The position numbers and the translations under genes were made by a program. DNA of 47,082 nucleotides, taken from assembly GCF_013697775.1 (NCBI RefSeq), contig NZ_JACCWG010000435.1, positions 1 through 47,082 of the forward strand, in the 5' to 3' direction. Source of the stretch: Ramlibacter sp. (GTDB lineage Bacteria; Pseudomonadota; Gammaproteobacteria; Burkholderiales; Burkholderiaceae_C). Below the pieces are notes generated by a model. It did not search any database. It was not told where the DNA came from and was given only the letters and a program-made list of their open reading frames with translations. Shown in pieces: positions 18,613 through 35,161 of the stretch; position 1 is the first letter of the stretch, and each line of letters begins with the position of its first letter.

Positions 18613-19245
18613 CTAGCAGAACACCTGGCGCGCCAGGTCCCAGCGGTCCAGCCGGTCCTGCATGCCGTTGTTGCCGCCGTTGATGATGCGGCTGATCTGG
18701 CGGAAGGTGTCCTCGTCGTCCTTGTCGGCCAGCGGGTTCAGGCCCTTGGAGTTCCAGAACCAGGCCGCCGACAGCGTCGCGCCGACCGGTGTGATGAGCC
18801 CGCCGGGGTTCTGCACCACGGTCCCATCGCTGATCCCCTTGCCGTAGGCCGTGTAGTTGCTCCTGCCGGTCACCTGGATCAGGCCGCGCCCGCGGAAGTT
18901 CCAGCCGTCGCCCGAGGCGGTGTTGCCGTTGCCGTTGCGGCTGGCATACACGTAGTTGGCGATCTTCTGCGGCTGGCGGTCGTAGGGCTGGGCGAAGGCG
19001 TCGCTGGTGAAGCGCGAAGGCCAGGTCTTGCGCAGGCCCTGCCACGAATAATTCAGGTTTTCCTCGACGGCGCGAAAGCTGCCCGACTCGTGCGCGATCT
19101 GCGCCACGAAGGCGGCGACCCGCACGCCGCTGTTGATGCCGAAGCGCACCATGGCGGCATTGAGCGCATCGACGTACATGGCGGCGACGTCCGGCTTGGC
19201 GTCGGGCACTGCGTCTTGCAGCTGGCTGGCTGTGATCGGTTGCAT
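18613..19245 (-). CDS. Glycoside hydrolase family 19 / endolysin-like
   Basis: AFVAQIAHESGSFRAVEENLNYS...GWNFRGRGLIQVTGRSNYTAYGK...INGGNNGMQDRL. Confidence 0.85.
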   Translation of the reverse strand: MQPITASQLQDAVPDAKPDVAAMYVDALNAAMVRFGINSGVRVAAFVAQIAHESGSFRAVEENLNYSWQGLRKTWPSRFTSDAFAQPYDRQPQKIANYVYASRNGNGNTASGDGWNFRGRGLIQVTGRSNYTAYGKGISDGTVVQNPGGLITPVGATLSAAWFWNSKGLNPLADKDDEDTFRQISRIINGGNNGMQDRLDRWDLARQVFC

Positions 19246-19402
19246 GGCGGTCTCCCCTATTTCGGCGTGTTCAGCACGCGTTGTAAGCAAAGACCGGCCC
19301 GGCCGCAAGCCCCGCGTGCGCGCAGGCGGCGAATGCGTCACGCAGGCCGCGCCTGGCGTTGTTCGCGCGCCGCGCCGATCGTCATGGCGCCCGACGAAGA
19401 CG

Positions 19403-20509
19403 CTACGGCACGTTCCTGACCAGCGCCGCCGCCATGTCGATCACCACCACCTGATGCGGCTGCAGCCGCTGCGTGGGCTTGTGGATGTGGAAACCGAACG
19501 GGTCGCCCACCTCGGTCTTGATGCCAGAGAGTTCTTCCATCACGGCCAGCCCGCAGTACGGCGCATAGAAATCGGAATAGCCGCCCTCGTGCGTCATCAG
19601 CAGCCGCCCGCCGCACAGGCGTTCGGCGGCGTCCTTCAGCGCGCGCGTCATCAGCCGGTAGGTTTCGGCCATCGCCATCTGCCGGCCCAGCGGATCGTAG
19701 AGGCAGCTGTCGAAACCCGAGGCCACGAAGACCATCTCGGGCCTGAATTTCTCCAGCGCCGGAAGCACCACGCGCTCGACCACCGCCAGGTAGGTGTCGT
19801 GCCCCGACCCCGGCGGCAGCGGCACGTTGATGTTGCCGCCGCGGCCTGCGCCTTCGCCGGTTTCGGTCAGCGTGCCGGAATTCACCGGGTAGTTGCTCTC
19901 CTCGTGCACGGACATGGTCAGCACGTCCGGGTCGTGGAAGTACAGGCCCTGCACGCCGTTGCCGTGGTGCACGTCCCAGTCGAACACCGCGATGCGCTTC
20001 ATGCCATGCACCGCGCGCAGGTGCTCGATGGCGATGGCCGTGTTGGCCAGCAGGCAGAAGCCGCGCCCGCGGTCGCGCTCGGCATGGTGGCCGGGCGGAC
20101 GCACCAGCGCGTAGGCGTTGCGGATTTCGCCGTTCACGATGGCGTCCGCGGCGGCGATGCAGCCGCCGGCCGACAGCTGCGCGATCGGCCACGAATCGGG
20201 GCCGACCGGCGCGCGCTCGCCGGCGTCGCCGTGGCCCTGCCTGCTCATCGCCTTCAGCCGCTCGACATAGCCCGGCGTGTGGATGCGCAGGACCTCTTCC
20301 TCCGTCGCGGGACGCGGGCGCACCAGGGCCAGTTCGTCCAGCAGGCCCGACACCTCCAGCAGGTTGCGGATGCGCCGTTTGCTGGTCGGCTCCTCGATGT
20401 GGAACAGGCCGGGCTCGATGAAGCCGCCCGCCGGCATGGCACCGGCGGCGATGCCGGTGATGTGCCACATGTAGCGTTCATGCCAGACCAGGCCGGTCTT
20501 CGCAGCCAT
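19403..20509 (-). CDS. Class II HDAC / acetylpolyamine amidohydrolase-like deacetylase
   Basis: RPPGHHAERDRGRGFCLLAN, FDWDVHHGNGVQ, GFDSCLYDPLG, THEGGYS: metal ligands and catalytic His/Tyr motifs intact. Confidence 0.9.
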   Translation of the reverse strand: MAAKTGLVWHERYMWHITGIAAGAMPAGGFIEPGLFHIEEPTSKRRIRNLLEVSGLLDELALVRPRPATEEEVLRIHTPGYVERLKAMSRQGHGDAGERAPVGPDSWPIAQLSAGGCIAAADAIVNGEIRNAYALVRPPGHHAERDRGRGFCLLANTAIAIEHLRAVHGMKRIAVFDWDVHHGNGVQGLYFHDPDVLTMSVHEESNYPVNSGTLTETGEGAGRGGNINVPLPPGSGHDTYLAVVERVVLPALEKFRPEMVFVASGFDSCLYDPLGRQMAMAETYRLMTRALKDAAERLCGGRLLMTHEGGYSDFYAPYCGLAVMEELSGIKTEVGDPFGFHIHKPTQRLQPHQVVVIDMAAALVRNVP

Positions 20510-20511
20510 GC

Positions 20512-21771
20512 TCAATCGCAGGACAGTTCGAGCGCCAGCAGTTCGTCCATGCGCTGGCGGCGGCGGATCAGCCGGCGGCTGCCGCCGTCCAGCAGCACCT
20601 CGGGCGCCAGCGTGCGGCTGTTGTAGTTGGAGGACATGCTCGCGCAGTACGCGCCGGCGTCGTTGAACACCGCTAGGTCGCCCACCTCGGGCTCGGGCAT
20701 GTCCTGCGTGACGATGCCGCCGCCCGCCTCCTGCGTGAACAGGTCGCCGGCCTCGCACAGCGGCCCGCCCACGATGGTGGGGCGCACGTTGCCGCGCGCC
20801 GGCGCGCCGGCCTGCGGCACGATTTCGATCTGGTGGAAGCTGCCGTACATGGACGGGCGCATCAGGTCGTTGAAGCCGGCGTCCACCAGCACGAACTGGT
20901 TGGCCCCTACGCTCTTCTTGGCACGCACCTCCGACACCAGGCAGCCCGAATTCGCCACCACGTAGCGGCCCGGCTCGATCTCCAGCGAGACCGGATGCCC
21001 CAGGTGCGCCTCGATGGTGGCGCGCGCCGCGCTCCACACGTCGAAAATTTCGCCGACGTCGAGCTCCTTGTCGCCCTCGCGGTAAGTGGCCGGCAGGCCG
21101 CCGCCGGCCGACACCGCCTGGATGTCGATCGGGCACTTGCGCACCTCGTTGACCATCGCGTCGCACACGCGCCGCAGGTGGCCGACGTCGGCGCCGGAGC
21201 CGATGTGCATGTGCAGCCCGACCAGCTGCAACTCGTGCCTGCGGATGAGGCCGTAGCACTCCTGCACGTTCTCGTGCCAGATGCCGTGCTTGCTGAACTC
21301 GCCGCCGGTGTTGGTCTTGCGGTTGAAGCCGCTGCCGAAACCGGGGTTGATGCGCAGCCACACCGCATGGCCAGGGCTGGCCTGCGCCAGCTGCTCCAGC
21401 ATCTGCGGCGAGCCGATGTTCACCGGGATCTTCAACTGCGCGATGCGTTGCAGCACCGTGCGGTCGAGGATGTCCGACGCATAGACGATGCCGGCCGGCT
21501 CGCCCGAGCCAACGAAGCCGGCCGCCACCGCGCGCTCGATCTCGCCCAGCGACACCGCATCGACCACCACGCCCAGCTCGCGCAGCAGCCGCAGCACGTG
21601 CACGTTGGAATTTGCCTTCTGTGCGTAGCGGACCACGCCGAACTTCTTCAGCCGCTCGATCCGCCCGCGGATCGCCGCCGCGTCGTAGACCCAGCACGGC
21701 GTGCCGTGCTGCTGCGCGACCTCCCGCAGCGTGTCGTCGGGGATGGTATGCCTGGTTGTGGGTGCGTTCAT
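20512..21771 (-). CDS. LysA-like fold-III PLP-dependent (diaminopimelate/ornithine-type) decarboxylase
   Basis: VRYAQKANSN (PLP Lys), HMHIGSG, SAGGGLPATY, EIEPGRYVVANSG, GGPLCEAGD. Confidence 0.88.
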   Translation of the reverse strand: MNAPTTRHTIPDDTLREVAQQHGTPCWVYDAAAIRGRIERLKKFGVVRYAQKANSNVHVLRLLRELGVVVDAVSLGEIERAVAAGFVGSGEPAGIVYASDILDRTVLQRIAQLKIPVNIGSPQMLEQLAQASPGHAVWLRINPGFGSGFNRKTNTGGEFSKHGIWHENVQECYGLIRRHELQLVGLHMHIGSGADVGHLRRVCDAMVNEVRKCPIDIQAVSAGGGLPATYREGDKELDVGEIFDVWSAARATIEAHLGHPVSLEIEPGRYVVANSGCLVSEVRAKKSVGANQFVLVDAGFNDLMRPSMYGSFHQIEIVPQAGAPARGNVRPTIVGGPLCEAGDLFTQEAGGGIVTQDMPEPEVGDLAVFNDAGAYCASMSSNYNSRTLAPEVLLDGGSRRLIRRRQRMDELLALELSCD

Positions 21772-21804: not shown

Positions 21805-22860
21805 TCAGGCCCGCGCACCGGCCGGCGCGATCTCGACGATCACGTAGGCCAGGTCGTTGAAGCCCTGCGCGATGAAGCGGTCGCTCAGCGCCGCGTAGCG
21901 GGTGCGCGCGGCCACCGGGTCGGGGTGGTACAGCCGGCAGCCGCCGGCCATGTCCAGCGCGGGCCGCAGCGGCGACGGGTTGGCCATGGTCCGGCGGCCG
22001 TCCACGCGCAGCAGGCCCTCGTGGGCCGGCACGTCGAACACCACGCTGTCGGCGCCGACGATGGACTTCGCGAGATCCACCAGCTCCCACTGCTTGGTGG
22101 CGGCGTTGCCGAGCGAATAGCCCAGCAGCACCGCATGCGCATGCGCGCCCTGCGGCGTCTGCCGGAACGCCGCGATGGCGCGGAACGCGGCGCCTTGCAG
22201 CTGCAGCCCGTTGTCGCCGCCGTTGGAGGTCAGCGCCAGCATGTCGCGCGTGGACGCCAGGCCGAACGGCAGGTTGCCCAGCACCAGCGTGCGGCTGCCG
22301 GCCGCGCCGCCGACGACGCCGGCGAAACCGTCGCGGATGTCGTTCAGCATGCCCACGCGATCCGTCTGTTCGTTCAGCACATGGTTGCAATGGAAGTACG
22401 CCAGCGCGCGCGGATTGATGTCCATGCCGATGCGGCGCACGCCGTTGCCGAAAAAGGCCAGGTTGTGGCCGCTGCCGGTCGCCAGGTCGATCACCGTGTC
22501 GGCCCAGTGCACCAGCCCGCGCCGGCGGCAGTACGCGAGGATCGCCTCGCTCTCGTCCGCGAACGGGAACACGCGGATGCGCGCATCGACCCACACGCCG
22601 TCCGTCAGCACGGTTGACTGCCCGATCAGGTTGACGCGCACGCCCAGGGCGCCGTCCTGCACCAGGCCCAGTGTGTTGAGCGCGTCCACCGTGAACGAAG
22701 CCGGCAGCTTGAACGGCCGCAGCTGCGACGGGCTGGACTGCCAGTCCCGGTATGCCGGGCTGCCGCAGACGGCCTTCAGTTGCGCGACGGCGGCGGCGCG
22801 CAGAGCCCCATCTTCCGCGAGCCTGGAGGTCGCCAGGAAGATGCTGTCGGTGTCGATCAT
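21805..22860 (-). CDS. Class I SAM-dependent methyltransferase, PrmC/RlmF-like fold
   Basis: VIDLATGSGHNLAFFGNGVRRIGMDINPRAL (SAM motif I/II); LVLGNLPFG at motif IV. Confidence 0.78.
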   Translation of the reverse strand: MIDTDSIFLATSRLAEDGALRAAAVAQLKAVCGSPAYRDWQSSPSQLRPFKLPASFTVDALNTLGLVQDGALGVRVNLIGQSTVLTDGVWVDARIRVFPFADESEAILAYCRRRGLVHWADTVIDLATGSGHNLAFFGNGVRRIGMDINPRALAYFHCNHVLNEQTDRVGMLNDIRDGFAGVVGGAAGSRTLVLGNLPFGLASTRDMLALTSNGGDNGLQLQGAAFRAIAAFRQTPQGAHAHAVLLGYSLGNAATKQWELVDLAKSIVGADSVVFDVPAHEGLLRVDGRRTMANPSPLRPALDMAGGCRLYHPDPVAARTRYAALSDRFIAQGFNDLAYVIVEIAPAGARA

Positions 22861-23864
22861 GGCGCCCTGCCCAGCATCAGGCCCAGCAACGCGCAGCGCA
22901 GCCACACGCAGTCGCGCGCCTGCTTGAAGTAGTGCGCCTGCGGCATGGGGTCCAGCGCGCGGTCGATGTGGTCGGCGATCGGCCCGATGTGCAGCACGGC
23001 GATCGGCCGCCCGAGCTGCGCCACCGCCTGCGCGGTGATGCGGTAGTTGTCCGGCGTGGGCGTACTCTGCTTGGACGCTACGTTGGCCTTGTCGTCGAAG
23101 TCGGCGTGGAAGTTCGAGTGGTACACGCCCAGCGTGGTGACCAGGTCGGCCCGCGCCAGGATCTCGCCGATGCCACCGCACATCTCCACCGCCGTGCCGC
23201 GCTGCCGCAGCAGCTGCGCCACGTCGTCGGGCATGCTGGAGCCCGGCGGTTCCAGGACCAGCAGGCGCACGCCGAACAGCGACAGGCCCATCACCAGCGA
23301 CCGGTGCGCGCGCCAGCCCAGGTGGCCGACGATGCCGACGGTCAGCCCGTCCACCCGGCCGAAGTGCTTGTGGATGCGGTACAGGTCGCCCATGGCCTGC
23401 GTCGGGTGCTCGCCGTAGCCGTCGCCGGCGTTGACCACCGGCACCGGCGAACATTGCGCGGCGCGCGCGGCGGAGCCGGTCTCGGGGTGCCGCAGCACCA
23501 GCAGGTCGGACATCTGCGCGGTGAAGCGCACCACGTCCTCCAGCGTCTCTTCGTAGAAGCCGACGGCGCGGGTGGTGGCCGGGTCGGCGAAGCCGATCAC
23601 GTGGCCGCCCACGCGCAGCATCGCCGCCTCGAAACTCATGCGGGTGCGCGTGCTCTGCTGGTAGAACATCACGGCCATGGTGCGGCCCGCGATCACGCCG
23701 GCGCAGGAGGTGCGCGGCGCCTGTTCCAGCAGGGCCGCCATGCGAAAGCAGTGCTCCAGCATCGGCCGCGTCACGTCCAGCATCGAGACGATGCTGCGCG
23801 GCAGCGCCGGCCCGTCGGCCAGGGCGCCGCGCAGGTCGCCGGCGGTCATCTGCGCTTCGGACAT
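22857..23864 (-). CDS. Aspartate/ornithine carbamoyltransferase-family enzyme, divergent second-substrate site
   Basis: Carbamoyl-P motif STRTRMSFEAAMLRVGG, LRHPETGSAARAA, EHPTQAMGDLYRI; 4-bp ATGA overlap with next gene. Confidence 0.85.
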   Translation of the reverse strand: MSEAQMTAGDLRGALADGPALPRSIVSMLDVTRPMLEHCFRMAALLEQAPRTSCAGVIAGRTMAVMFYQQSTRTRMSFEAAMLRVGGHVIGFADPATTRAVGFYEETLEDVVRFTAQMSDLLVLRHPETGSAARAAQCSPVPVVNAGDGYGEHPTQAMGDLYRIHKHFGRVDGLTVGIVGHLGWRAHRSLVMGLSLFGVRLLVLEPPGSSMPDDVAQLLRQRGTAVEMCGGIGEILARADLVTTLGVYHSNFHADFDDKANVASKQSTPTPDNYRITAQAVAQLGRPIAVLHIGPIADHIDRALDPMPQAHYFKQARDCVWLRCALLGLMLGRAP

Positions 23865-23869
23865 GGAGG

Positions 23870-24373
23870 TCACTTCGCGCCGGGCGAACCCTCGGCCAGT
23901 GCGCCGACCGCCTCCCGCGTCATGCGAAAGACATGCCAGCCCTCCATGGGCGCCGCGCCCAGCGATTTGTAGAAGTCGATGGACGGCGTGTTCCAGTCCA
24001 GCACCGACCATTCCATGCGCGCGCAGTCGCGCTGCACCGCGATCTGCGCCAGGCCGCGCAGCAGCCCCTTGCCCAGGCCGTGGCCGCGCGCCTCGGGCTT
24101 GACGAACAGGTCTTCCAGGTAGATGCCCTTCTTGCCGAGGAAGGTGGAGTAGTTGTGGAAGAACAGCGCGAAACCCACGCCCTTGCCGTCGAGTTCCGCG
24201 ATCAGCACCTCGGCGGGCGGCCGCTCGGACGCGAACAGCGCCTCGCGGATCACCGCCGGCGTCGCGACGAACATGTCCTCCAGCTTCTCGTAGACGGCCA
24301 GGTCGCGGACCAGCTCAACGATCAGGTCGGTGTCGGCCGCGGTGGCGGGGCGGATGTGGGTCGAAGATGCCAT
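23870..24373 (-). CDS. GNAT N-acetyltransferase, SSAT/diamine acetyltransferase-like
   Basis: IRPATAADTDLIVELVRDLAVYEKLEDMFVAT...YLEDLFVKPEARGHGLGKGLLRGLAQIA...WNTPSIDFYKSLGA. Confidence 0.87.
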   Translation of the reverse strand: MASSTHIRPATAADTDLIVELVRDLAVYEKLEDMFVATPAVIREALFASERPPAEVLIAELDGKGVGFALFFHNYSTFLGKKGIYLEDLFVKPEARGHGLGKGLLRGLAQIAVQRDCARMEWSVLDWNTPSIDFYKSLGAAPMEGWHVFRMTREAVGALAEGSPGAK

Positions 24374-26249: not shown

Positions 26250-27047
26250 CTACGGCTGCAGCCGCCGCCGCGCGATGAGCGGGTAGCCCCGGTACTCGGT
26301 CATGCGGCGGTGCAGGGTCTCGCGGTCCTCGACCGAGATGTAGCCCAGCCGGCCGTTGCCGTGCAGCACACGCTCCTGGTCCAGCGCCATCACGCAGTGC
26401 GCGGAATAGAAAAGGAAATCGCCGCGGCGCAGCGGCTCGTCCGGCTCCAGCTTGCGGCCCAGGTGCTCGCTCATGTCGCTCATGGCGCGCGGCGACTCCA
26501 GGCCGCACAGCGACAAGGCCAGCTGGATCATTCCGGAGCAGTCCTGCCCCAGCGTGGAACGGCCGCCCCAGATGTAGGGCGTGCCGGCGAACGAAGCCAT
26601 GGTGTCGACGAAGTCCGCTTCCTTGTGCGCCAGGTCGCCCGCGTGCTCCTTGAACACCCAGCCGCGCGGCCACACGCGGAAATGCTCCTCGGTTTCGCCG
26701 ATCACGCGCAGCAGGCTGCCGCGGCTGAGCATCTCCACGTGCAGCGCCTTGAGCGATGGTGCGGAAACGATCTGCGCGACGTGGGCCTGCACGCGGTGCG
26801 TGGCCTCGCCCGGCGGTTCGGCGACGTCTTCGATGCGGACGTAGCCGGTGTGGCAGAAGCCGGAGAACTCCACGCTGGCCTGGTACCAGGCGCCGACCTG
26901 CGCGCGGATGCCCAGCGTTTCGCCGTAGAGCACCTGCGTCTCCAGCGGCGCCGACTCGGCCGGCTCCTCGCGCAGCGGCGTGATGCCCTTGATGGCAACC
27001 ACCCGCTTCAGGCCGGCGGGCAACGGTTCGATGGTTCTGTTGGTCAC
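26250..27047 (-). CDS. SH3-like + NlpC/P60 cysteine peptidase-family protein
   Basis: TPYIWGGRSTLGQDCSGMIQLAL (Cys motif), RRGDFLFYSAHCVMAL (His motif). Confidence 0.87.
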   Translation of the reverse strand: MTNRTIEPLPAGLKRVVAIKGITPLREEPAESAPLETQVLYGETLGIRAQVGAWYQASVEFSGFCHTGYVRIEDVAEPPGEATHRVQAHVAQIVSAPSLKALHVEMLSRGSLLRVIGETEEHFRVWPRGWVFKEHAGDLAHKEADFVDTMASFAGTPYIWGGRSTLGQDCSGMIQLALSLCGLESPRAMSDMSEHLGRKLEPDEPLRRGDFLFYSAHCVMALDQERVLHGNGRLGYISVEDRETLHRRMTEYRGYPLIARRRLQP

Positions 27048-27054
27048 GGCGGCC

Positions 27055-28860
27055 TCAGCTGTACAAAGTTTCGATGTGCTGCCGGCGCAGCGCGCGGAAG
27101 CGTTTGAGGTGGATGGTTCCCTTGTCGGTCAGCTCGCCCTCGGCGGCGGACGGCGGGTCGGCGAGGACGCACCAGCGCGCCAGGCGCTCGCTGCTGCCCA
27201 GGCACTGGCCGTTGTAGCGCCCGAGCAGGTTGGCCAGATGCGTGTGCAGCAGCGCGGCGCGCGCATCGTCCCAGGCAAGGTCGTGGGTCCAGCCGAAGTC
27301 GCGCAGCGCGATCTCGTCGTTCAACCAGACCAGCGCCGCCAGGTGCGGCCGGTCCGGGCCTTCGAGCACCACGTCGCGCACCAGCGGCCCGGTGATGGCG
27401 AACAGCGCGCGCTTGATGCGGTTGGGGATCACCCAGGTGCCGGTGGCCAGCTTGAACTGCTCGGCGAAGCGGCCTTCGAAGCGCAGCCCGCGGTCCGGGT
27501 TGGCAGCATCGGCGAAGGACACCGCGTCGCCGGTAATGAAGAAGCCCTCGCCGTCGAACGCGGCGGCCGTCGCGGCGTCGTCGCCCAGGTAGCCCGGCGT
27601 GACGTTGGGCCCCTGCACCGCGATGGCATACAGGCCGTCGCGCTCCGTCAGCCTGCAGCGCATGCCCGGCAGCGGCGTGCCGATGTGGCCCGCTGCAGCC
27701 ACCGGGAAATGCGTGATGGTGGTGGTGGAGGTGGTCTCGGTCAGGCCCCAGCCGCTGGCCCAGGGCGCGGGTGCCCCGGTGGCCACGCGGGCCATCTCGT
27801 CGATGCCGGTCCACACCTCGGCCGACAGCACGGCGCCGCCGTACACCAGCAGGTCCAGCCGGGAGAAGAAGCGTTCGGCCAGCGCCCGGTCCTGCTGCAG
27901 CAGCGGCAGCAGCGCCGAATAGCCGAGCGGCACGTTGGTGTACCAGGTCGGCCGCACCTCGGCCAGGTTGCGCGCCGTGGCGGCGATGCCCTCCAGCGAG
28001 GGTCGGCCATCGTCGATGTAAAGCGTGCCGCCGTTGCGCAGCGTCATGTTGAAGCTGTTGTTGCCGCCCGAGGTATGGCTCCACGGCAGCCATTCGCACA
28101 GAACCGGTGGATGGTCGTTCAAAAACTGCCACAACTGCGCCATCTGCTGCTGCTGCGCGCACAGCATGCGCTGCGTGTTGATCACGCCCTTGGGCGTTCC
28201 CGTGGTGCCGGAGGTGAACAGGATCTTGGCAACCGTGTTGCCGTCGACCGCACGGCGGCGGTCTTCAAGCGCCGCCGTCAGCGCGAGCGGCGTGTCGGCC
28301 TCGGTTTCGGCGCGGCAGGCCTGCAGGTCAGGCGTAAGAATCTCCCGGGCGTCCTCGGCCCGCACCGGCCCGGCCGCGGCGGACAGCGACAGCGGGCTGA
28401 CGTACAGGAAGGCCGGCCGCGCGATGCGCACCACGTCGCCGACCCTCTCCAGGCCAGTGGCGCTGCCCAGGTACGTGGGCGACAACGGCACCACTGCCAC
28501 GCCGACCGACATGGCGGCCAGCGACAGCACGCCATGCGCGATGCTGTTCTCGCTGATCAGCAGCAGGCGGTCGCCGTGCGTGCATTGCAGCCGCAGCAGG
28601 TGGCGCGCCACCGCGTCCACCCACTGCCTGGCTTCACCATAGGTCAGCGTCGCCCAGTCGCCGTCCGCCGCGCGCTCGGCAAGGAACACGCTGGACGGCG
28701 TGGCCGCAGCCCAGTGCGTGAGATGCGCCAGCAGCGACGCGGGGAACGACCGCAGCGGGTCGTCGCAGGAATACAGCAGGTCGCCCGCGCGCCGCACCAG
28801 CGTTGTGGCCGGCCTGGCGAGGCGCGTGCGGGCGGGTGCGGCGGCGCGAGACATGGCCAC
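27055..28860 (-). CDS. AMP-binding acyl/aryl-CoA ligase, feruloyl-CoA synthase-like
   Basis: ILFTSGTTGTPKGVINTQRML, SGWGLTETTSTTTI, FEGRFAEQFKLATGTWV. Confidence 0.88.
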   Translation of the reverse strand: MAMSRAAAPARTRLARPATTLVRRAGDLLYSCDDPLRSFPASLLAHLTHWAAATPSSVFLAERAADGDWATLTYGEARQWVDAVARHLLRLQCTHGDRLLLISENSIAHGVLSLAAMSVGVAVVPLSPTYLGSATGLERVGDVVRIARPAFLYVSPLSLSAAAGPVRAEDAREILTPDLQACRAETEADTPLALTAALEDRRRAVDGNTVAKILFTSGTTGTPKGVINTQRMLCAQQQQMAQLWQFLNDHPPVLCEWLPWSHTSGGNNSFNMTLRNGGTLYIDDGRPSLEGIAATARNLAEVRPTWYTNVPLGYSALLPLLQQDRALAERFFSRLDLLVYGGAVLSAEVWTGIDEMARVATGAPAPWASGWGLTETTSTTTITHFPVAAAGHIGTPLPGMRCRLTERDGLYAIAVQGPNVTPGYLGDDAATAAAFDGEGFFITGDAVSFADAANPDRGLRFEGRFAEQFKLATGTWVIPNRIKRALFAITGPLVRDVVLEGPDRPHLAALVWLNDEIALRDFGWTHDLAWDDARAALLHTHLANLLGRYNGQCLGSSERLARWCVLADPPSAAEGELTDKGTIHLKRFRALRRQHIETLYS

Positions 28861-28866
28861 GCGTTC

Positions 28867-30054
28867 CTAGACCGCCGCCCGGGACGCGCGGCCCGGTACG
28901 TGCCAGGCCGCCAGCGCCAGGCAGGCAAGCAGATTGGCGGCGCCCAGCACGCCCACGAATGCCGAGGCCCTGAAACCCTCGCTGCCCGTGCCCAGCGCCG
29001 CCACATGCGCGCCGAACACCGCACCCGAGAGGTGCAGGCAGCCCACGATGGCACCGGCCGCACCGGTGGACCGGTCAGCCAGCGACAGCGCCAGGCTGGT
29101 CGAATACGCCGTCAGCACGCCGTTGCACATGGAGCACAGCGTGGCGGCAAGGTAGAACAGCACCAGCGTCAGCAACCCATGCGACCACGCGGCATACAGC
29201 GCCGCGCCGACGGCTGCCTGCACCGCCGCCGCGACGCTGGTGAGCGCGGGCAAGTGCAGCTTGCCGGCGAAGCGGCGCACCGTGAGCGCCACCAGCACCG
29301 TTGCCACCGATGGGATCGCGCTCACCGTGCCGTAGAACGCGGCCGAGCGGCCCCAGTCGCGCATCACCAGGAAAGGCGCGGCATTGATGAAGATATAAGC
29401 CGCGCCGAGACCTGCCGCGCCGACCAGCGACGCCAGCCACAGCCGCGGCAGCAGCAGGTTGGCGCCCAGCCCGCGCACGCTGCCCGCGAGCGAGCTGCGC
29501 GCGCGCAAGGTCTCGGGCACGAAGCGCCAGCACAGGTAGAGCGCGGCACAGGCCAGCACCGCGATCCACACGGCGCCGGCACGCCAGCCCAGGCTCGATT
29601 CGAACAGCGCACCGGTGGGCGCACCCAGGGTGGGCCCGAGCGCTGTGCAGATGCCGACCAGTAAATTCCCCCGCGCCAGCGCCACGAAGTCATCGGGGTA
29701 CAGGTCGCGAAAGATCGGGCCGATGAGGATCAGCGACGCGCCGCCCGCGGCGGCCTGCAATATGCGCAGCCGCAGGAAGGTTTCGAAGTCTGCCACCGCG
29801 GCCTGCAGCAGCGACGCAATCGCGAACACCGCCAGGCCGCCCAGCAGGATGCGCCTGCGCCCGAACCGGTCCGACACCGTGCCGGCCAGCAGGTAACCCA
29901 CGCCGATGCCGGCGAGGCTGGCCGACACCAGCCAGCCGACCGGCCGGCCACCCGTGTCCAGTTCGCGCTGGATGGTGGGCAGCGACGCGGTCAGCACCAG
30001 CACCGCGTAGAACGGCAAAAAGGCGGTCAGGCCGAGCGCGAACGGCAGGCGCAT
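28867..30054 (-). CDS. MFS transporter, Bcr/CflA-like efflux
   Basis: GVGYLLAGTVSDRFGRRRILLGGL motif A; 12-TM pattern. Confidence 0.85.
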   Translation of the reverse strand: MRLPFALGLTAFLPFYAVLVLTASLPTIQRELDTGGRPVGWLVSASLAGIGVGYLLAGTVSDRFGRRRILLGGLAVFAIASLLQAAVADFETFLRLRILQAAAGGASLILIGPIFRDLYPDDFVALARGNLLVGICTALGPTLGAPTGALFESSLGWRAGAVWIAVLACAALYLCWRFVPETLRARSSLAGSVRGLGANLLLPRLWLASLVGAAGLGAAYIFINAAPFLVMRDWGRSAAFYGTVSAIPSVATVLVALTVRRFAGKLHLPALTSVAAAVQAAVGAALYAAWSHGLLTLVLFYLAATLCSMCNGVLTAYSTSLALSLADRSTGAAGAIVGCLHLSGAVFGAHVAALGTGSEGFRASAFVGVLGAANLLACLALAAWHVPGRASRAAV

Positions 30055-30418: not shown

Positions 30419-33400
30419 CTACCTGGCCTTGTAGACACCAGCTGACAATTCGATGTCGTTAGCCTTATGAAGATGGTCGATTTGCATCTCAATCGTTTCG
30501 CGCAACTGGCTGCTCACCACCGCGAATCCAAGCGTCTTTGCGACTGCCGGAGGGATCTCCCCGCGATCTCCTCCCAAGTTCTGTTTCAGCAATAAGCGAA
30601 TTGCCTCCTGGATTTCAACAGGCGACAGGTACTCGGGTTTCCTCAACGCCGGAGACGACACCGCGGCGCGATTGCGAACACGAACTTTCCGGGTTGGAAT
30701 GTCGATGAACGATTCCCTTTTCTCGATACTCTTGTCGCGGATGAGGTGACCGAGGCTGGCCTCGACTGCATCGCGGATGCGATTCCCGGCTCGCTGCAGC
30801 CCCCACAGCGTCCGCAAACGAGTGACAAGTTCGTCTGTGTGGATCGGCCCTTCCTCCTGGACGATCTTGTAGACAAACTCGGCAAGCCGGTAGGCAGGAA
30901 CTTCGTGCAGTTCCTTGTGCTTCGGCACGTCGAAACTCGCCTCCGAATACGTTTCGCCGGGGCGGTTGCCGAACCCCACCTGCATCTCCGACGTGTTGTC
31001 TTCGCGATCGAGAAACCCGAACTGCATAACCGGCGTGGCGGCATTCGCACGCAATTCCTCGCGAGCCGCCAATTCGCCGCGCGCGGCCGCTACCGCCGCG
31101 AGCAGTTTGTCCAGCTCGATCTGCGGTTGCCTGAACCAGTCGCTTGCCCAAACCCTGTGAAGGATCCAGCCGTGATCTTCCAGGACAGCCTGCCGAAGAC
31201 GATCTCGGTCACGCGCGGAACGCGAAGAGTGATACGAGTCACCGTCGAGTTCGATCCCCAACAGGTAGCGGCCAGGATTGTCCTTGTCGAGTACGGCGAG
31301 ATCGATGAAAAACCCCGCAATCCCCACTTGCTGGTGGACAGTCAATCCTGTTTTCTCGACAGCACCCTTTAGATCGGTTTCCAGCGCGGAGCCTGCCTCC
31401 TTGCTGGTGCTCGTGGCAATCGACAGCTTTCCTGTCTCCGCGTACTTGAGAAATACCTTGAGCGCCGCGACTCCCTTGCCCTTCGCGCGCTCCAGGTCAA
31501 TGTCGTCGGCCGTGATCGACGAGAACACCTCGCACCGCAACTTGGCACGGGAAATCAGGACGTTCAGCCGGCGTTCTCCACCATCAGCGCCTATGGGGCC
31601 GAATCGCATTGCGAGGTAGCCGCTTGCGTTTCGCGCGTAGGCAACCGAGATGAAGATGACGTCCCGCTCGTCGCCCTGCACGTTTTCCAGGTTCTTGATG
31701 AAGAACGGTTCGTTGGGATGCGCCGTGAAGAAGGATTCCGTTTCCGGAAACTTGCGCCGCAGTACTTCAAGTTCGTCCTGGATGGCGATCTTCTGCTGGA
31801 GCGAGAACGATGCCACGCCCAGCGAGAGTGCGGGTGACTGCACCGCGTGTTCCATAATCGCGTGCGCGATGGCCTTCGCCTCTTCCCGGTTGACGCGCGT
31901 CCCACCCGTGTCGAAGACACCGTCCTTGACATAGTTGAATCGCAGCCCCTGTCCGCCAGCAGCAGTTGTGGGGCTCGGCACGACAAACAGCCTGCTTTCG
32001 TAGAACTGCTGGTTGGACACGGCGATCAGGGATTGATGGCGGCTGCGGTAGTGCCACCGGAGCATCTTTTGAGGCATGCCCTTGGAGACGCACAGGCTCA
32101 GGATGCTCTCGACATCCGCAGTTCCCGCAATGTGCGCCTCGTCGTCCTCGTCGTCACGTTCCGCGTCGCTTGTCATTCTCGAAAAGAATCGGGTCGGCGG
32201 CAATTGCTTGTCGTCTCCCACGACGACGATCTGCTTGCAACGCGCGACCGCACCCAGTGCATCCACCGGCTCAATCTGGCTCGCCTCGTCGATGACCAGC
32301 AAGTCGAACTCGATCGCTCCCGGCTCGAGGAACTGCGCCACGGAGAGCGGGCTCATCATGAAGACGGGCTTGATCGCTTGCACCGCCGGCGCCGCATGCC
32401 GAAACAAGCGGCGCAGCGGCATATGACCGCGTTTGCGCGCAATCTCTCCGTTCAACACGCCCATGGGGCCGATACCAGTCGCAGCGCGTGGAATGCCTTC
32501 GAAGTGGCGCAGCGCGGCCTCGGCACGCGCGATTTCGATCCGCTTTTTGTCAAGGCTTCGGAACTGCTCCACGTGCCGCGAGTGCTGGCCGCCGTCGAAT
32601 TCGACCAGTTGCGGCATCTGTCGGCACAGATCGCGCAGCACGGTTTCGTAGCTTGCCTTGAGGAACGCGGGAACAAGCTGGGCTACAGTCAAGCGCGCCT
32701 CTTCGATCTGCGTCACCAGGCCGGTGAGCCCAAGACCCTTTGCCTGTTCCCTGACGCTGAAATAGTGTGTCCACGCGAACAGGCCAACAGGCTCGCTTTG
32801 CCACCGCTCCAGCCGCGACGCAATTTCCCTCAGCGCGATCGCTTCAGATGAAGGAACACCGAAGGCCTCCGGAACATTCAGCGCGTAGTTGGCGGCGATC
32901 TTGCTCCAACTGACCTCGAACGACTGAAGCTTCACGCTGCAGTCCCGCGTGGTCGATCCGCATTCAGAAGGATCGGCAACACGCGAGTAGAGCTGCCTGA
33001 ATCGTTCCGGGACCACATTTCCGTCCGAACCCCGCATCCATTCGATCACGGCCTGCAGGTGCGACCAGTTGCTTCCCTCTCCTTGCCACGCGGCCCCGAA
33101 AGCGCTGCGCGCGAAATCGGCCTGGGCTGCCACTTCCTTGCGCAGCCGTATGGATTCCGAGATCGTATCGAGGAGCGCCAGTTGCTCGTTCCGGGTTTTG
33201 GGCAAGGCTGTGCGCAATTGGCCCTTCAATGATCTGACCGCCGCCCGGTATTCCCCTGAGAAGATCCGAAACAGCGAGTCGCCCCGCTCCGCGATGGCAC
33301 GGCGTGCAAGTGCGAAGTCCTGGTCCCATGCGCTTTCCAGGAATGCCTTCTCCAGTTTTTCCCGGCTCAGCGCATAGCTCAACCCTTTGTCGACGATCTG

Positions 33401-35161
33401 GGTCAGGGCGCCGAATCCTGCTGACCACACGGCGTGCGCAACGGCGCCTCTGTCCAGGTGCGGCGCATTCGCAATCTTCTCGCCCACACGCAGCTGCTTC
33501 TTGAGTTCGTGCAGCGTGGGTGCTTCGGGAAGTCCCAGGCTTTGTGCCACGCAAGCCGATGCAAGCTCGGTCGCTTGCAACAGCTCCAGCGTAATTGCAA
33601 CCTCCTCCTGCCACCGATCGGCGTCAAGTTTGAGGACGGCACGGTGCGAAACGCCGCGCCATGAGTGGCCGGCGATGTCACCGATCTCGTCCGCCTTTCT
33701 TGCCAGCTCCTGCAGGAGCTGGCGACGCTTGGCGAACTCATCCGGCGTCCACGTCGCCGCCTCTGGCACTAACTCGGACACCCCGCCGATCGCGTGTGCG
33801 TTCAAGCACGAGAGCATGCCGAGCACCTCGTAAGGTTTTAGGCGGTGCGGCTCGAGCCGCCTGTGCATCGCATCAGCATGCGCATTGAGATGCACGCGCA
33901 CGGCATCGAGCCGAGAAACGACCTCGTCGCGTAGCTCGAGCTTCGGCCTGCCAAGATCCTTGGTGGCCTTCAATTCTTCCAGCACGCGTCGCTTGTTCGA
34001 TCGGTTGCTGTGCAGCTCAAGGCATGCCTCACCCAGACCGATCGCGTTCAGCCGCCGGAACACCACCTCGAGGGCCGCCATCTTCTCGGATACGAAAAGC
34101 ACTTTCTTTCCGTCCGCCACGGCTGCGGCGATCACGTTGGTGATCGTCTGTGACTTGCCTGTCCCGGGCGGCCCCTGGATGACCAGATGCGCGCCGTTGC
34201 GGACCGCCTCCATGGCCAGGGTCTGCGAGCTGTCCGCGTCGACAACGTGTCGTTGCGCATCAACCGTCACCACCGCATCAATGCGGTCCGGCTCCTCCAA
34301 CAGGTCTTCACGCGATGCGAAGCCGTCCTGCATGACGGCGCGGATCAGAGGCTGTTCATCAATGCGCTTGTCGACAGGCCAGTTCGCCGGATCGAGATCC
34401 CGGTACATGAGGAATTTTGCAAAGCTGAAGAACCCGAGCGCAATCGCGTCCGGAAAGACCTCCCACCCTTTCTGTGCTTTGGCGACTTCTGCAACCTGGG
34501 AGATATAACCCATCGGCTCGAAGTCGTCGCCAGAGTGGAACTCGGGAAGCAGCAGGCCGAAATCCGCCTTGAGCTTGGCGGCGAGCGACAGGTTTTCGGC
34601 TGCGTCTTCCTGCATCCACGACAGGTGGAACCGGTCTGCCGCACTCTTGCGCGACAACATCACCGGGACAAGAACCAGCGGCGCCAAGCGGTCCTTCTCG
34701 ACTCCCTTTGGATCAATCCATTTCAGCTGGCCCAGGGCGAGGTAAAGGATGTTGACGCCCTGCTCCTCGATGAAAGTTCTCGCGTCGTAGAACATCTCGA
34801 GCAAGCGGTGTTGCAACGTATCCGACGCGAGCTTCGTCTGAAGCTTGAGATCGCGGTGCCTCGTTGCGGTGCCACCCAGCTGTTCGTCATCGTCATCGGG
34901 CTGCGACAACAGCACTCCGGCTTCGTCGTCGCCGGTTTTTTCATTCGACTTCTCGCCTTCGATCTCGCGGCCGGGCAGGAATGTCATGGATTTTTCTGTT
35001 TTGACGAGCGCTTCGTAAACGTACTGCGTCTTCTCGTCATAGATATTGATGAGCTTGCTCGACGCTCGCTTGGGGATGCTGAGGAGCCTATTGCGCGTCG
35101 AGAGATCGAGAAGCGATAGCCTGCTTTGCTCCAGTTTTTGCGCAATCGTGACCATCCCCAT
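30419..35161 (-). CDS. DUF4011 - SF1 helicase - Vsr/MTES_1575-like nuclease - DUF3320 protein (Hhe-type anti-phage architecture)
   Basis: GPPGTGKSQTITNV (Walker A), LLVIDEASQIEPVDA (Walker B), VVGDDKQLPPT, NVLISRAK; Vsr-like LGIELDGDSYHSSRSARDRDRLRQAVLEDHGWILHRVWASDWF. Confidence 0.9.
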   Translation of the reverse strand: MGMVTIAQKLEQSRLSLLDLSTRNRLLSIPKRASSKLINIYDEKTQYVYEALVKTEKSMTFLPGREIEGEKSNEKTGDDEAGVLLSQPDDDDEQLGGTATRHRDLKLQTKLASDTLQHRLLEMFYDARTFIEEQGVNILYLALGQLKWIDPKGVEKDRLAPLVLVPVMLSRKSAADRFHLSWMQEDAAENLSLAAKLKADFGLLLPEFHSGDDFEPMGYISQVAEVAKAQKGWEVFPDAIALGFFSFAKFLMYRDLDPANWPVDKRIDEQPLIRAVMQDGFASREDLLEEPDRIDAVVTVDAQRHVVDADSSQTLAMEAVRNGAHLVIQGPPGTGKSQTITNVIAAAVADGKKVLFVSEKMAALEVVFRRLNAIGLGEACLELHSNRSNKRRVLEELKATKDLGRPKLELRDEVVSRLDAVRVHLNAHADAMHRRLEPHRLKPYEVLGMLSCLNAHAIGGVSELVPEAATWTPDEFAKRRQLLQELARKADEIGDIAGHSWRGVSHRAVLKLDADRWQEEVAITLELLQATELASACVAQSLGLPEAPTLHELKKQLRVGEKIANAPHLDRGAVAHAVWSAGFGALTQIVDKGLSYALSREKLEKAFLESAWDQDFALARRAIAERGDSLFRIFSGEYRAAVRSLKGQLRTALPKTRNEQLALLDTISESIRLRKEVAAQADFARSAFGAAWQGEGSNWSHLQAVIEWMRGSDGNVVPERFRQLYSRVADPSECGSTTRDCSVKLQSFEVSWSKIAANYALNVPEAFGVPSSEAIALREIASRLERWQSEPVGLFAWTHYFSVREQAKGLGLTGLVTQIEEARLTVAQLVPAFLKASYETVLRDLCRQMPQLVEFDGGQHSRHVEQFRSLDKKRIEIARAEAALRHFEGIPRAATGIGPMGVLNGEIARKRGHMPLRRLFRHAAPAVQAIKPVFMMSPLSVAQFLEPGAIEFDLLVIDEASQIEPVDALGAVARCKQIVVVGDDKQLPPTRFFSRMTSDAERDDEDDEAHIAGTADVESILSLCVSKGMPQKMLRWHYRSRHQSLIAVSNQQFYESRLFVVPSPTTAAGGQGLRFNYVKDGVFDTGGTRVNREEAKAIAHAIMEHAVQSPALSLGVASFSLQQKIAIQDELEVLRRKFPETESFFTAHPNEPFFIKNLENVQGDERDVIFISVAYARNASGYLAMRFGPIGADGGERRLNVLISRAKLRCEVFSSITADDIDLERAKGKGVAALKVFLKYAETGKLSIATSTSKEAGSALETDLKGAVEKTGLTVHQQVGIAGFFIDLAVLDKDNPGRYLLGIELDGDSYHSSRSARDRDRLRQAVLEDHGWILHRVWASDWFRQPQIELDKLLAAVAAARGELAAREELRANAATPVMQFGFLDREDNTSEMQVGFGNRPGETYSEASFDVPKHKELHEVPAYRLAEFVYKIVQEEGPIHTDELVTRLRTLWGLQRAGNRIRDAVEASLGHLIRDKSIEKRESFIDIPTRKVRVRNRAAVSSPALRKPEYLSPVEIQEAIRLLLKQNLGGDRGEIPPAVAKTLGFAVVSSQLRETIEMQIDHLHKANDIELSAGVYKAR

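Follow-up and report, generated by a model that had tools for sequence, protein, structure and literature searches.

Which amine is modified by a carbamoyltransferase that has the carbamoyl-phosphate residues of aspartate carbamoyltransferase (ATCase) and a replaced aspartate-binding loop? A gene raising this question was predicted at positions 22857 to 23864 of a 47,082 nt stretch of Ramlibacter sp. DNA (assembly GCF_013697775.1, contig NZ_JACCWG010000435.1, positions 1 to 47,082, forward strand), the whole of which is referred to here as the window. An intact open reading frame (ORF) was found there on the minus strand, a detail left unstated in the original prediction, and runs uninterrupted from 23864 to 22857; the plus-strand frame over the same interval was dismissed as merely a spurious open frame. 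The encoded protein matches the Pfam domains OTCace_N (2.2e-36) and OTCace (1.2e-10), and the strings quoted in the prediction (STRTRMSFE, LRHPETG, EHPTQ, HLGWRAHRS, LGVYHSNFHADFDDKANVASKQ and LHIGPI) are all present. An ortholog in Polaromonas is 66% identical, and the differences between the window and Polaromonas sequences are 0.47 at third codon positions and 0.26 and 0.21 at the others. Third positions thus show about double the differences of first and second positions, indicating that the genes are under selection for protein sequence and, together with the ortholog, that the motifs of the carbamoyltransferase have not arisen by chance.

Features of the window discussed in the text (operon genes numbered in order of transcription; residues are those of the window carbamoyltransferase, with E. 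coli ATCase equivalents where stated)
Feature	Position in window	Strand	Evidence
1, Bcr/CflA-type MFS exporter	28867..30054	-	Domain/family matches
2, acyl-CoA synthetase/AMP-binding ligase, PRK12582 group	27055..28860	-	Domain/family matches
3, NlpC/P60 + SH3 peptidase, gamma-D-glutamyl-diamino acid endopeptidase-like	26250..27047	-	Best PDB match 3npf, putative dipeptidyl-peptidase VI (5e-11)
4, DAO-type FAD-dependent amino acid/amine oxidase, N-terminal extension of ~130 aa	24410..26215	-	DAO 5.6e-30; syntenic in L053, 58%; PDB search to 1e-5, no match
5, GNAT, SSAT/thialysine N-acetyltransferase type	23870..24373	-	Pfam; PDB matches 12jc, Thialysine Acetyltransferase (9e-45), 2fe7 (6e-45) and diamine acetyltransferase 1 (2e-29)
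6, carbamoyltransferase, ATCase/OTCase fold, 335 aa	22857..23864	-	Intact ORF; OTCace_N/OTCace; AF2 model
7, putative class I SAM methyltransferase	21805..22860	-	Weak TRM5-TYW2/Methyltransf_25; Pfam at 1e-3, no match; syntenic in L053, 57%
8, second diaminopimelate decarboxylase (LysA) paralogue, E. coli type	20512..21771	-	TIGR01048 365.8 over 297.9; PDB 1knw (3e-155)
9, HDAC-like amidohydrolase	19403..20509	-	Hist_deacetyl 1.2e-86; PDB HDAH (1e-114), propanil hydrolase (2e-109)
Q69 at ATCase E50; FYQQSTRTR vs FYEPSTRTR	23658..23660	-	Q in 8/8 altered-site proteins, E in 27/27 others
80's loop, residues 94-106, DPATTRAVGFYEE; two extra residues, Arg99 at S80, K84 absent	23547..23585	-	Alignment
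HLGWRAHRS, residues 181-189; one residue shorter than DLKYGRT, R185 at R167	23298..23324	-	Alignment
240's loop, residues 245-266, LGVYHSNFHADFDDKANVASKQ; RxQxER absent	23067..23132	-	ORF translation and alignment; low confidence in model
LHIGPI, residues 291-296, HxLP/HxGP motif	22977..22994	-	ORF translation and alignment

The complement of related genes was examined in the remainder of the genome, and three OTCace_N genes were identified, argF (contig C16), pyrB (contig C363) and the window gene. A canonical pyrB is therefore present elsewhere, and the window gene would not encode the sole ATCase. The genome's own PyrB carries RLQNERM and HPGP and passes both ATCase equivalogs (401.6 bits against a cut-off of 263), whereas the window carbamoyltransferase falls below both, scoring 203.7 of the 236.95 required for TIGR00670 and 184.2 of the 263 required for NF002032. 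The TIGR00670 cut-off is likewise missed by four others that share the altered site (196.8 to 233.3). An ortholog was not found in 36 other genomes of the genus, where matches were at the level of PyrB or ArgF only, and the window carbamoyltransferase is thus accessory. Scores against the knotted families (AOTCase, SOTCase and YgeW) were weak (40.5 of 288 and 19.8 of 453), and the extended 120's loop characteristic of those enzymes is absent in the alignment.

Active-site residues were mapped by alignment on E. coli ATCase, the numbering of which is used below unless a residue is given as one of the window protein, and eight altered-site proteins were compared with 27 other rows from the ATCase branch. 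S52, T53, R54, T55, E86, R105, H134, Q137, R167, P268 and R296 are kept in all eight altered-site proteins, and E50, S80, K84, R229, Q231, E233 and R234 are replaced in all eight. In the window protein, STRT, HPTQ and R125 (the R105 equivalent) are present. The ATCase-like carbamoyl-phosphate site had been predicted to be intact, which was correct for S52, T53, R54, T55, R105, H134 and Q137 but not for S80, K84 and E50, the first being R99, the second gone and the third Q69. The S80 position is occupied by R in 8/8 altered-site proteins and by S or G in the other rows, the K84 position by G or D in 8/8 and by K in 27/27, and the 80's loop is two residues longer in each of the eight. In ATCase, S80 and K84 are supplied by the neighbouring subunit (PMC4581275), thus the carbamoyl-phosphate site has been rebuilt where the subunits meet and is only partly intact. 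A change in both of these neighbour-subunit residues might be expected of a non-catalytic or structural homologue; however, the carbamoyl-phosphate residues of the protein's own subunit are invariant (8/8) and the codon pattern is that of purifying selection, making loss of activity most improbable.

Aspartate is positioned in ATCase via its alpha-carboxylate by K84 and R167 and held via its beta-carboxylate by R229 and Q231; all known ATCases have RxQxER, and the second substrate is determined by the 240's loop that contains it (PMC4581275). In agreement with the original prediction, the aspartate-binding loop was found to be replaced, with GVYHSN at the position of RxQxER and R229, Q231, E233 and R234 all gone. 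As R229 and Q231 are lost and R167 is kept, the part of the site that binds the side-chain end of aspartate has gone and the Arg for the alpha-carboxylate stays. The DLKYGRT segment, said to read HLGWRAHRS, is indeed shortened by one residue in 8/8 altered-site proteins, but R167 is retained as R185 and the segment is not functionally replaced. Retention of R185 could also reflect a structural use. LHIGPI had also been singled out as an oddity, and this applies to I293 and I296 but not to the Gly, which at the L267 position is ordinary, the genome's own PyrB having MHPGPI; HIGP is accordingly an HxGP variant as in that protein.

The position of the window protein in the family was examined in a tree of 41 rows that contained neither UGTCase nor VioL reference sequences. 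Seven proteins, from the window, Polaromonas, Streptomyces, the gammaproteobacterium and Staphylococcus, formed a clade with support of 98/93 when all columns were used, and the same seven still formed one clade (96/91) once E50 and three loops had been removed from the alignment. With the diagnostic columns removed, the clade groups with the ATCases, which are separated from the OTCases by a split supported at 100/100. The window protein has the traits of this clade, namely FYQ, R at S80, an 80's loop with two extra residues, no K84 or RxQxER, and monophyly with the other members. A further protein from S. griseoflavus (L056) has all of the diagnostic residues, yet joined a cyanobacterial/actinobacterial set after removal of the diagnostic columns, and was therefore dropped as a firm member. 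In the best trees the clade is away from both PyrB groups, as expected of an enzyme outside canonical PyrB, but the AU test was less clear, marginally rejecting a tree that joins the window pair to PyrB of the E. coli type (p 0.039) and not rejecting one that joins it to PyrB of the genome's own type (p 0.258). Structure prediction, suggested previously as a check, gave an AF2 model (pLDDT 88.9) for which the best PDB folds identified by Foldseek were all ATCases (TM 0.82 to 0.91 to target, among the ATCase chains listed); the 240's loop is poorly modelled, with low confidence at residues 250-264 and pLDDT <50 at 250-254 and 258-264.

That ATCases are the nearest solved structures and best-matching families, and that union with the own-type PyrB was left unrejected, would fit a second true ATCase, which might be catabolic or might resist an ATCase inhibitor that the operon produces. 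This is very unlikely, as RxQxER, S80, K84 and E50 have been lost jointly, also in relatives from other phyla, the scores are below both ATCase equivalog cut-offs, and a normal PyrB is already present in the genome. The proposal that the enzyme carbamoylates something other than aspartate, perhaps a pathway amine, is hence supported and survived the tests that were run, on the basis of sequence, phylogeny and operon.

The window gene is part of a nine-gene minus-strand operon with intergenic gaps of -4 to 36 nt, in the order MFS, acyl-CoA ligase, NlpC/P60, FAD oxidase, GNAT, carbamoyltransferase, methyltransferase, LysA and HDAC-like hydrolase. Five bases separate the carbamoyltransferase gene from the GNAT gene before it, and at its other end an ATGA combines its stop with the start of the methyltransferase gene. 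A canonical lysA (519 bits) was found elsewhere in the genome, and the operon LysA is consequently a duplicate. The same fold is known to work in reverse in the catabolic OTCase, PTCase and UGTCase pathways (PMC4581275), and a catabolic transcarbamylase could phosphorolyse a ureido compound to carbamoyl phosphate for ATP. However, neither a carbamate kinase nor a ureidase is encoded among the nine operon genes, and the exporter, N-acetyltransferase and deacetylase look anabolic, which leaves a catabolic role with hardly any probability.

A different possibility is that the enzyme is an omega-amine carbamoyltransferase on an ATCase scaffold, acting like OTCase, PTCase or DPTCase on the terminal amine of lysine, of an N-acetylated diamine or of another diamino acid. 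LysA, the SSAT/thialysine-type GNAT and the HDAC-like hydrolase are diamino-acid or diamine enzymes, and the Gln of FxQxSxRT is also the choice of PTCase (PMC4581275). However, R167 is kept in 8/8 altered-site proteins and 27/27 other ATCase-branch rows, unlike in OTCases, and the motifs that characterise OTCase, PTCase, DPTCase and DBTCase on the OTCase branch (DxxxSMG, YGVx or (T/S)RWQ, and HCLP/HDLP) were not found in the window protein. Terminal carbamoylation is hence considered less likely, but as a rival it is to be taken seriously.

Other genes near the operon or related to it were also recorded. Directly upstream (30419 to 35161) is a gene for a 1580 aa DUF4011/helicase/MTES_1575 nuclease protein with a GC content of ~60% compared with 70%, which looks acquired and is possibly defence-related. 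Just downstream on the same strand (18613 to 19341) is a GH19 chitinase-like (lysozyme-type) gene. A second DAO-type oxidase, 33% identical, is encoded in the same genome (L073; G000:C62:404-1858) near the end of a contig, next to an AMP-binding domain that is truncated there, and is possibly from another small biosynthetic cluster.

A scan of 84,980 genomes revealed one close relative, the protein in the Polaromonas metagenome-assembled genome. Six genes are syntenic there (oxidase, GNAT, carbamoyltransferase, methyltransferase, LysA and HDAC), although the methyltransferase and LysA genes are separated by an inserted MFS gene, which is a different one. Neither the acyl-CoA ligase gene nor that for NlpC/P60 was seen at the Polaromonas locus, where the contig carries other ORFs including a transposase, and as the Polaromonas homologue of the ligase is only 37% identical it was excluded from the conserved core. 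With a profile built on the proteins from the window, from Polaromonas and from S. griseoflavus, members were detected in 3 of 295 further Streptomyces genomes and 1 of 368 further gammaproteobacterial genomes, and the protein from the latter led to Staphylococcus plasmids. The group is thus rare within the collections searched, which sample genomes rather than metagenomes. When plasmids were searched with tblastn, the methyltransferase retrieved nothing, and the oxidase retrieved solely distant, unrelated small clusters.

The carbamoyltransferase genes in Streptomyces and the gammaproteobacterium adjoin a gene for a ThiF/E1-like protein, the proteins being 62-65% identical across phyla. An MFS gene is near these pairs, and a winged-helix regulator gene is present in two of the Streptomyces loci. 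In Staphylococcus epidermidis, plasmid p2 (8.5 kb) carries genes for MFS, ArsR-type regulator, ThiF and carbamoyltransferase, and otherwise only replication, mobilisation and hypothetical genes. This module is found on small staphylococcal plasmids (S. epidermidis plasmid NZ_CP093195.1, L111, 2009-4632; also matches H28 and H40-H47), its last gene being annotated as aspartate carbamoyltransferase. A published table for the nisin J plasmid shows what appears to be the same module, with the ThiF and carbamoyltransferase genes seemingly shortened and without comment (PMC6964739). Neither the window operon nor the Polaromonas locus has a ThiF/E1-like gene. Among solved prokaryotic structures, the best relatives of the Staphylococcus ThiF include TcdA and MccB. 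TcdA activates the carboxylate of a threonylcarbamoyl group. A possible link of the Staphylococcus module to 6-hydroxyaminopurine had no support in the literature and was abandoned.

In S. griseoflavus JCM 4479, the altered-site carbamoyltransferase is in an NRPS cluster (L056, 1-12092), with NRPS, PALP, OCD, glutamate-mutase-like and Rieske genes as neighbours. In other pathways, a PALP and OCD pair yields 2,3-diaminopropionate, and the adjoining pair here is a further point in favour of omega-amine carbamoylation. The differing neighbourhoods (ThiF-MFS modules, NRPS cluster and window operon) suggest that different pathways have recruited this type of enzyme.

Further loci were encountered in these searches. 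On a Corynebacterium tuberculostearicum plasmid (L112, 6662-9560), a close ThiF relative (57.5%) shares its locus with genes for MFS and for a member of the formyltransferase family, as though this were a related module in which formyl takes the place of carbamoyl. Beside the gammaproteobacterial ThiF-carbamoyltransferase pair (L108, 10410-11570) is a gene that joins a haem-oxygenase-like iron enzyme to a cupin domain, a possible parallel to the arrangement of the N-oxygenase SznF. A neighbouring ATCase-branch group lacking RxQxER is represented in Synechococcus RCC307 (L066, 9872-14380), where the gene adjoins an asparagine-synthase-like gene and one for an N-carbamoyl-amino-acid/allantoate amidohydrolase, making this group a candidate for a further non-PyrB transcarbamylase.

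Taken together, the window protein is probably a natural-product transcarbamylase that N-carbamoylates an amino acid of the operon other than aspartate. Counted for this reading were the PyrB and ArgF encoded elsewhere, the TIGR00670 score below cut-off, the joint residue replacements and the retained residues (8/8 each), the separate clade of seven, the match of the AF2 model to ATCase, the tight operon, the synteny with Polaromonas, the accessory distribution, the pattern of purifying selection, altered-site relatives near ThiF-MFS modules or an NRPS with PALP and OCD, and the published role of RxQxER and the 240's loop (PMC4581275). Counted against it were the possible structural use of R185, the poorly modelled 240's loop in an active site shared between subunits, the AU value for the own-type PyrB, and the Polaromonas locus in which acyl-CoA ligase and NlpC/P60 genes were not seen. 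The enzyme would belong to the ATCase branch as a transcarbamylase of trimeric type, would have departed from pyrimidine synthesis and would have lost aspartate as a substrate. Carbamoyl phosphate would be held by the usual residues of its own subunit, with the lengthened 80's loop of the neighbour probably contributing R99, which may help to bind it, in place of S80 and K84. The carbamoyl group would then pass to the amine of an amino acid that the operon produces or consumes. R185 suggests that the nucleophile is an amine beside a carboxylate, so that alpha-N-carbamoylation would produce a ureido acid, and the rebuilt 240's loop, without R229 and Q231, would take a different side chain. Our guess is a substrate of lysine or diaminopimelate origin, given LysA, the SSAT/thialysine-type GNAT, the HDAC-like hydrolase and an NlpC/P60 protein resembling gamma-D-glutamyl-diamino-acid peptidases. 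It might be kept as an N-acetyl intermediate, the GNAT conceivably adding and the HDAC-like hydrolase removing a protecting acetyl group, and an MFS exporter is present.

The window carbamoyltransferase therefore belongs to a small, scattered group that probably carbamoylates an amino acid other than aspartate. This is a variant within the known transcarbamylase family, and a search of the literature found no description of the group, the operon, the ThiF and carbamoyltransferase modules or a product in Staphylococcus. The clade could tentatively be regarded as an uncharacterised natural-product family with an Arg-bearing 80's loop, forming alpha-ureido acids from amino acids other than aspartate; in the ThiF-linked branch, the E1-like partner might activate the carboxylate by adenylation and so form a hydantoin ring, much as TcdA acts on threonylcarbamoyl-adenosine, with the window operon elaborating a lysine or diaminopimelate skeleton otherwise. 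We regard this wider scheme as possible though doubtful. As at least some members, the Staphylococcus plasmid copies, are annotated as aspartate carbamoyltransferase, a distinct enzyme group is hidden. If the reading is correct, Q69, R99, the 80's loop with two extra residues and the absence of RxQxER would distinguish natural-product transcarbamylases from PyrB. This signature could then be used to discover ureido-containing metabolites, including that of the plasmid module of human-skin staphylococci, and Arg in place of the Ser/Lys pair would be a second way to complete a shared active site in a much-studied enzyme.

Compared with known enzymes, the window protein shares with PyrB the ATCase fold, SxRT, R105, HPxQ, R167, R296 and ~34% identity, but lacks RxQxER and K84, has Q for E50 and R for S80, scores below the cut-offs, and differs in three loops (80's two residues longer, DLKYGRT one residue shorter, 240's longer). 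UGTCase is also an enzyme of the ATCase branch with a substrate other than aspartate (PMC4581275), but in a comparison by motifs it has H(T/S)LP and keeps an S/K pair in its 80's loop, whereas the window protein has R99, no Lys and HIGP. VioL from zwittermicin synthesis (DPTCase, 2,3-diaminopropionate transcarbamylase) is likewise a transcarbamylase of natural-product clusters, but belongs to the OTCase branch with HDLP and (T/S)RWQTTG (PMC4581275), and neither motif is in the window protein. Some transcarbamylase clades have been noted to have no assigned function (PMC4581275), and the existence of the present clade fits this remark. A further counterpart is formed by the ThiF-linked 'aspartate carbamoyltransferases' of Staphylococcus plasmids, Streptomyces and the gammaproteobacterium, which share both the clade and the set of replaced residues; these are encoded with ThiF, MFS and an ArsR-type regulator and have PFELxDF in the 240's loop, whereas the window operon is without ThiF and its carbamoyltransferase has GVYHSNF.
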